From IMG/VR virus record IMGVR_UViG_3300006790_000069, positions 1 to 32,052 of that record: a stretch of DNA of 32,052 bases; one strand, written 5' to 3'. The notes below the pieces were generated by a model. That model saw nothing but the letters and a program-made list of their open reading frames with translations. It made no database searches and had not been told where the DNA came from. Shown here in pieces: positions 148 through 1,305 of the stretch; the stretch's first letter is position 1; each line of letters starts with the position of its first letter. Origin of the DNA: a virus. The translations under genes and the position numbers were made by a program.

Positions 148-1305
148 TTACACCCTCATCACTTCGCGCACGCCGTGGGAGTTCATCGGGGTCACGATGC
201 CGTCAGTCTCCATGCGCTCGATCATGCGGAACGCGCGGTTGTAGCCGATTTTGAGCTTGCGCTGAACAGCTGAGACCGACGCCCGGCCAGACTCGCGAAC
301 AAAGGCGATGGCGTCTTGGTAGAACGGTTCTTCGTCATGCCGGGCTGCGTTGGCGTCTGTCTTTGATGTTGTAGGCGCCGGGCTGTCGCCAATGCCTTGG
401 GGCTGGTCTTCGCCGCCCAGCGCTTCGCACAGTGCCGGGATGAACTGCTGCAGGGTGCCGCCCATGATCGTCAGGCTGGCGTCCAGCTCGCTGGCCATGT
501 CGTCGCCTGCTTGATCGCTGGCTTCATCGATAACCAGGGCATCGAAGCGCAAGCGCTTGATGATCATGCGATCGGTCAGCATGAAGTTGAGCTTTTCGCC
601 CCAGCGCAAATCAAGCTGGGTGACCTGCTTGCCGGAGCTCAGGTGCAGCTGAATCTCGTCGCTGCCCAGATCCTGATGTTTGCAGCGGACTTGCCCGCCG
701 TCTTCGCTGGTGTCGGTGAGCTCGCAGTTGTCGCCGATCTGCAAGGTGGCGGGTGCTTGGTTGTCTTTGACCCACTGGGTCATGCTCACGGCGGGTGGCA
801 TCTTCACGTTGATAGGGCGCACGGGCAGGGTGCCTGTGCATTCGCGCAGCAGGCTCAGCAGGTCTTCTGCGCGCTTCCAGGTGCCGGTGTCGACCGCGAT
901 CCAACCGTCAGTGGCGCTGATTAGTGCAAAGGTGGTTTGCGTGCGGGTGAAGGCTCGCGGCAGCAGCTGCATGATGATTTCGTCTTTCAGGGTGTCGCGC
1001 TCCTTTTTGTACACCTTGCGGGCGTCGCGCTCTTCGATATCGGCGATCTTGGCGTCGAGGGCGTCTTTCACGATGTGGCCTGGCAAAATGCGCTCTTCTT
1101 TCTGCATGGCAACCAGCCAGAAGCCGGCGGCGACCTGCACCAGGTTTACAGAGTGGCGCCCGAACGGGGTTGTCCAGCCGAGGGTGTGTGTCTCTTGGCT
1201 TGCGCACTCGCGGGCTGGCTTTTGCTGCAGGGCTGCAATGAGCTCATCAAGGGTGAAGGGGACGGCCTGGGTGAAGCGGTACAGCAGGAGGTTTTTGAAC
1301 CACAT
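148..1305 (-). CDS. RdgC-family recombination protein fused to an FtsK gamma domain
   Basis: A 385-residue protein. Residues 1 to about 300 match RdgC (start MWFKNLLLYRF; conserved blocks such as PGHIVKDAL and LRWGEKLNFML). RdgC is a ring-shaped duplex-DNA-binding protein known to limit RecA loading. After a polar linker (about 300-321) comes a winged-helix domain at about 322-385 with the FtsK gamma signature (EPFYQDAIAFVRESGRAS, then YNRAFRMIERMETDGIV). In FtsK this domain reads the polar KOPS sequence GGGNAGGG and contacts XerD. The reading frame is continuous, so the fusion is in the gene itself and not an annotation artefact. A GGAG lies 7 nt upstream of the ATG. It sits in the leftward operon behind csrA and the repressor operators, so it is likely silent in the lysogen. 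The KOPS-targeted role is inference. Confidence 0.9.
   Translation of the reverse strand: MWFKNLLLYRFTQAVPFTLDELIAALQQKPARECASQETHTLGWTTPFGRHSVNLVQVAAGFWLVAMQKEERILPGHIVKDALDAKIADIEERDARKVYKKERDTLKDEIIMQLLPRAFTRTQTTFALISATDGWIAVDTGTWKRAEDLLSLLRECTGTLPVRPINVKMPPAVSMTQWVKDNQAPATLQIGDNCELTDTSEDGGQVRCKHQDLGSDEIQLHLSSGKQVTQLDLRWGEKLNFMLTDRMIIKRLRFDALVIDEASDQAGDDMASELDASLTIMGGTLQQFIPALCEALGGEDQPQGIGDSPAPTTSKTDANAARHDEEPFYQDAIAFVRESGRASVSAVQRKLKIGYNRAFRMIERMETDGIVTPMNSHGVREVMRV

Follow-up and report, generated by a model that had tools for sequence, protein, structure and literature searches.

A phage protein joining RdgC to the FtsK gamma domain, and the repeated gain and loss of that domain among related phages

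The window analysed here is the whole 32,052-nucleotide stretch at positions 1-32,052 of the IMG/VR virus record IMGVR_UViG_3300006790_000069. Near one end its minus strand carries an open frame that runs from ATG to TAA without an internal stop and joins an RdgC domain to the gamma domain of FtsK. The features of this gene and its surroundings are as follows.

1..145, minus strand: downstream gene (MSRPAINNEKAADLAAK...), read from the sequence and cut by the window end; it resembles the gene that follows the gamma-less rdgC of L003 (L003 ORF 6928-7419)
148..1305, minus strand: rdgC-gamma fusion gene, 385 residues, a single open frame with Pfam matches to RdgC and FtsK_gamma
151..336, minus strand: FtsK gamma winged-helix domain, residues 324-385 (PF09397; Foldseek 2ve8/2ve9)
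208..264, minus strand: DNA- and XerD-contact segment QRKLKIGYNRAFRMIERME, residues 348-366, equivalent to E. coli FtsK 1288-1306 (residue table; PMC5052618, PMC2680272)
337..405, minus strand: flexible linker, residues 301-323
406..1305, minus strand: RdgC domain, residues 1-300, a full-length ring protomer (PF04381; Foldseek 2owy)
1335..1733, minus strand: upstream gene, DUF7768/nucleoside 2-deoxyribosyltransferase-like; L003 has the same neighbour
2523-2708, minus strand: phage-encoded CsrA-like regulator (Pfam E 1.4e-17; phrog_9500)
10298-11377, plus strand: tyrosine integrase (phrog_1, E 1e-43)

Because it encodes its own tyrosine integrase, the window phage is probably temperate. At 5097-5979 on the minus strand, overlapping genes encode a 153-residue protein without a known family and then an HTH repressor, possibly a toxin-antitoxin pair.

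RdgC is a ring that closes around duplex DNA non-specifically and limits the access of RecA. In a Pfam search of the whole fusion protein, PF04381 matched residues 1-298 (E 1.1e-108; 363.6 bits against a cut-off of 25) over profile positions 2-298 of 298, and FtsK_gamma (PF09397) matched residues 323-382 (E 2.4e-22; 1e-23 for the gamma part searched alone), with a score of 78.8 bits against a cut-off of 30.6. Only these two domains lay above the Pfam cut-offs, and the alpha/beta motor of FtsK was not found in the protein. A sequence search against the PDB matched residues 1-305 to P. aeruginosa RdgC (2owy) and residues 323-383 to the gamma domain of P. aeruginosa FtsK (2ve8/2j5o). An AlphaFold2 model built from 35 aligned relatives had a mean pLDDT of 91, with gamma mostly above 90 and residues 305-323 below 50, pointing to a disordered linker of 19 residues. 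With Foldseek, the RdgC half of the model matched 2owy (TMt 0.96, rmsd 1.6, 55% identity) and also 2owl, and the gamma half matched 2ve8/2ve9, FtsK gamma structures solved bound to KOPS. The predicted folds of the two halves therefore resemble a solved RdgC and a solved KOPS-bound gamma domain. The original prediction, which saw in this gene a full-length RdgC joined to an FtsK gamma domain with both halves intact, is thus borne out by the single frame, the full-length profile and structure matches and the contact residues described below; the C-terminal FtsK_gamma match whose absence would have refuted it is present. Compared with known RdgC (PF04381; 2owy, 2owl), the protein shares the fold of the ring protomer but adds the C-terminal gamma domain. 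Compared with FtsK (PF09397; 2ve8, 2ve9, 5dcf), its gamma is about 68% identical to that of P. aeruginosa, with the KOPS trio and XerD contacts present, but the motor of an FtsK/SpoIIIE translocase is absent, and a dimer built like that of known RdgC would hold two gamma copies.

A search for the same fusion in other phages had been proposed with the original prediction, and such fusions were found in Pseudomonas and Vibrio phages, on plasmids and in many IMG/VR contigs. About 20 records of P. aeruginosa phages (Hollowayvirus: BR228a, PA8, JBD90 and others) match the fusion over residues 1-383; it recurs in Vibrio phages such as ST2-1pr and K478b and, with a more diverged RdgC, in SHOU24, D53, K242 and Valp1. 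Pseudomonas plasmids carry it too, as does a Dyella plasmid if the range of the match is taken as the sole guide. Its presence in plasmids and in phages that were isolated and sequenced excludes chance and an assembly artefact. About half of the best 80 matches in IMG/VR are fusions, and a Vibrio fusion protein used as query had no close relatives in that database. Among 299 Pseudomonas genomes at least one (L119) carries the fusion, as an extra RdgC copy, a lower bound drawn from re-examination of the genomes with extra RdgC matches only; none of the main RdgC matches among those listed for these genomes has gamma. In related phages, rdgC shares recombination operons with genes for SSB, an exonuclease and a Rad52-like protein. 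No paper on RdgC-gamma was found in the open-access literature; the parts are known, and their combination appears to be undescribed in the searchable literature.

The main finding is that gamma has been repeatedly gained, lost and exchanged with ndpA. On the best tree of 107 RdgC domains the presence of gamma requires 20 changes, and well-supported branches make at least 13 of these unavoidable. In DNA alignments, seven close pairs with rdgC genes 78-99% identical differ in gamma: the window and L003 (94% over 1,540 bases), BR228a/H66, JBD90/LKA5, L132/L161, L126/L155, L129/L164 and L142/L180. In all seven, homology ends at RdgC codon 301-308, which is the end of the gamma-less gene; for the window and L003, the point where it resumes falls outside the window. 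The gamma domains of RdgC proteins do not form one clade (AU p 0.011, with long branches left out and the group fixed in advance of the tree), a sign of repeated capture. In the gamma tree, which rests on 62 columns and is weak in branch detail, the Vibrio-type domain groups with FtsK gamma of other gammaproteobacteria (Ferrimonas, Celerinatantimonas), and the Pseudomonas-type domain lies near Pseudomonas FtsK. Gamma dN/dS was below 1 in all pairs compared (median 0.31), many of which are near saturation. Gamma thus resembles a mobile 'address label' on DNA-coating proteins, one that phages have gained, lost and swapped repeatedly.

In Pseudomonas phages with an exonuclease/gp20 operon, a gamma-less rdgC is usually followed by ndpA (YejK, NA37), a gene for a nucleoid protein. 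In 28 such operons, RdgC-gamma occurred without ndpA in 10, plain RdgC with ndpA in 15, neither in 3 and both in none. In this one operon type of Pseudomonas phages, what follows RdgC codon ~302 is either gamma or a separate ndpA gene, never both. The exclusivity is suggestive: independent pairs on the tree stand 5 to 0 (sign test p 0.06), for a pattern noticed in the same data as tested. NdpA/YejK (NA37, PF04245) is an alternative occupant of the slot but belongs to another protein family, and three ndpA genes (L150, L162, L193) have a C-terminal gamma of their own, L162 and the 96% identical L160 being separated by a clean gamma indel. Short stretches of gamma DNA reach 86% identity between RdgC-gamma and NdpA-gamma, but their linkers lack homology. 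The idea that RdgC-gamma arose from an rdgC/ndpA-gamma pair simply by losing the ndpA body is therefore no likelier than cassette exchange. Interactions with gyrase and topoisomerase IV have been reported for YejK (PMC9927451). That RdgC-gamma and ndpA replace each other at a single operon position suggests that these phage nucleoid proteins have a task in common. In some phages, gamma-less NdpA ends in an apparent gamma tail, for example GDGSREVLS or similar in H66.

In E. coli FtsK, KOPS reading needs R1300, E1303 and E1306 (PMC2680272), while Q1288, R1289, R1292, I1293, G1294 and N1296 touch XerD on a surface that also contacts KOPS DNA, and a 9-residue stretch of gamma is enough to stimulate XerCD at dif (PMC5052618). 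The window protein has the KOPS trio as R360, E363 and E366, and its XerD contacts are all identical except for R1292, replaced by K as in P. aeruginosa FtsK. Since both sets of residues are retained, an RdgC directed by sequence or by XerD is possible. Across 42 RdgC-gamma rows, Q1288 is kept in 42, R1289 and N1296 in 41 each, R1300 in 36, E1303 in 37 (with D in 4 more) and E1306 in 38 (with Q in 4 more). The FtsK residue occupies 92% of cells at contact positions against 57% elsewhere, and conservation of the recognition face contrasts with free variation at exposed neighbouring positions; among positions that are fixed in FtsK, the better retention of contacts over other sites was not significant (permutation p 0.09). 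Counting RdgC- and NdpA-gamma rows together, both trios are kept in 32 of the 45. The KOPS trio differs in 12 (K242 and Valp1, for example, have E in place of R1300), and the XerD trio (Q1288, R1289, N1296), the best-kept part of gamma, in 2.

These patterns bear on the idea that gamma is simply an extra winged helix that raises the general duplex-DNA affinity of RdgC or NdpA without specificity for a site or partner. Close relatives often differ by its gain or loss, which suggests that its role is accessory and dispensable, and KOPS residues are lost in several rows. We nevertheless consider this idea unlikely, given the selective retention of the recognition face and the repeated capture of a host-like FtsK domain rather than of other winged helices. 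The same conservation could reflect a XerD-binding tag. RdgC-gamma would then engage XerD/XerC of the host at dif and either switch on recombination independently of FtsK or block FtsK, for example to resolve circular phage or plasmid multimers or to disturb host chromosome resolution. The retained XerD trio, the published activity of the short gamma stretch and the presence of the fusion on plasmids are in keeping with this. Conservation cannot separate KOPS from XerD, because the contact surfaces overlap (PMC5052618). With the absence of a clear dif-like site and the integrase of the window phage, both taken up below, a XerD tag is in our estimation slightly less likely still.

The distribution of KOPS (GGGNAGGG) was compared between phages. 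The window has 4 copies against 5.2 expected, all 4 on one strand, and hence no enrichment. In Hollowayvirus genomes (records L248-L262) one strand has 9-13 copies and the other 0-1, much the same whether gamma is present or absent. Nearly all copies lie opposite rdgC, and their density is host-like; the strand skew resembles that of two host chromosome samples. In a permutation control KOPS ranked first of 56 motifs, with others close behind, as in strand counts of 57:8 and 50:3 for other G-rich motifs against 60:3 for KOPS. KOPS polarity was for these reasons rejected as support for a function of gamma. Phages with gamma had KOPS counts no different from those of phages lacking it, and the genomes of Vibrio fusion phages, 34-80 kb long, contain 0-3 copies, so that reading of KOPS in cis is not general. 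For dif, the enterobacterial consensus served as query, and none of 14 phages had a dif-like site clearly above simulated sequence. The best match in the window, which may be an incomplete genome, scored 17/28 against up to 19 in simulations; the highest of all, in K478b (20/28 against a simulated maximum of 19), was set aside as marginal.

The original prediction had proposed that gamma aims RdgC at polar DNA sites or at the Xer/dif machinery. The kept contact residues agree with it, but KOPS does not track gamma and no clear dif appeared. Judged from the sequences, a targeting of RdgC by gamma is plausible; the reading of KOPS on phage genomes does not explain it in general, and gamma may instead act on host DNA or, in trans, on XerD. 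A role in integration, likewise proposed, was not borne out: Xer-based integration is not supported, given the dif result and the window's own tyrosine integrase. The window differs from Xer-exploiting elements (IMEX) in that no dif-like attachment site above simulated sequence was found in it. XafT of TLC-phi, a Xer recombination activation factor, is also a phage factor proposed to act on XerD, and without FtsK. It differs in not being an FtsK gamma-RdgC protein and in acting on a dif-like attP, which RdgC-gamma phages appear to lack.

Gamma was also found on other proteins. In Rhodobacter phage RcMeacham, one protein (L010:3668-4990) combines a GapR DNA-binding domain with two stretches of FtsK gamma, and gamma is joined to HIRAN and Arc-like domains in phage or prophage proteins; in a protein of Gordonia phage Hedwig annotated as RusA-like, Pfam finds only gamma. 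The small terminase subunits (TerS) of the Bacillus phages Sam46 and Sam112 have an N-terminal FtsK_gamma (PMC8190038). They resemble the present case as phage DNA-binding proteins with a captured host-like gamma, but the partner and the position of gamma differ and RdgC is absent. Several partners (RdgC, NA37/NdpA, GapR, Arc-like and the published TerS) bind duplex DNA, as expected if gamma supplies DNA recognition, and the nucleoid and topology partners may point to a common theme. This range of DNA proteins, none of them a known inhibitor, speaks against a gamma that competes with host FtsK or baits a host factor in an anti-host or anti-defence role, with RdgC as carrier. Gamma does follow host-type FtsK, and repeated gain and loss is common in arms-race genes; even so, we regard such a role as improbable.

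The reading we favour, at somewhat less than an even chance, is that gamma is a DNA-reading address tag for the RdgC ring. The fusion would be a phage nucleoid-type protein, a ring around duplex DNA with gamma on a flexible tether, and the tag would most likely seed or hold this ring at KOPS-like octamers. Such octamers are found at high density on the chromosome of the host and also on the genomes of temperate Pseudomonas phages. A ring placed in this way would bias where RdgC limits RecA access, and gamma would be a mobile cassette that phages put on duplex-DNA proteins (RdgC, NdpA/YejK, GapR). This reading is favoured by the architecture and predicted fold, the repeated gain and loss, the several origins of gamma, the kept contacts and dN/dS below 1. 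It is weakened by KOPS counts that are the same with and without gamma, by KOPS trios altered in 12 of 45 rows and by the permutation p of 0.09. An RdgC dimer, moreover, offers two gamma domains, whereas FtsK reportedly uses three per KOPS, according to a 2008 structure paper. More doubtful, though a real possibility, is a wider proposal in which gamma, captured repeatedly from host FtsK, places otherwise non-specific DNA coaters (RdgC, NdpA/YejK, GapR) by the host's chromosome-polarity code or by XerCD, with RdgC-gamma and NdpA-gamma as interchangeable answers to a single task in the phage recombination operon. If the reader domain works on RdgC, ring positioning would become programmable, and the natural pairs with and without gamma are ready-made test material.

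On plasmids and phages, a small protein that bears the name 'DNA translocase FtsK' is not necessarily a translocase: plasmid tables give the last 76-83 residues of intact RdgC-gamma proteins under that name (L045:5904-6155, L047:4949-5179). Pseudomonas L111, L113 and L114 encode small gamma plus HIRAN proteins, confirmed by Pfam for L111 and L113. A linker element, GIDVTKxLGMxDGxTATLHxP, precedes gamma in L004, L039, L132, L129 and L119; the window protein is without it, and the Vibrio phage K242 (L014) has a stretch loosely like it.
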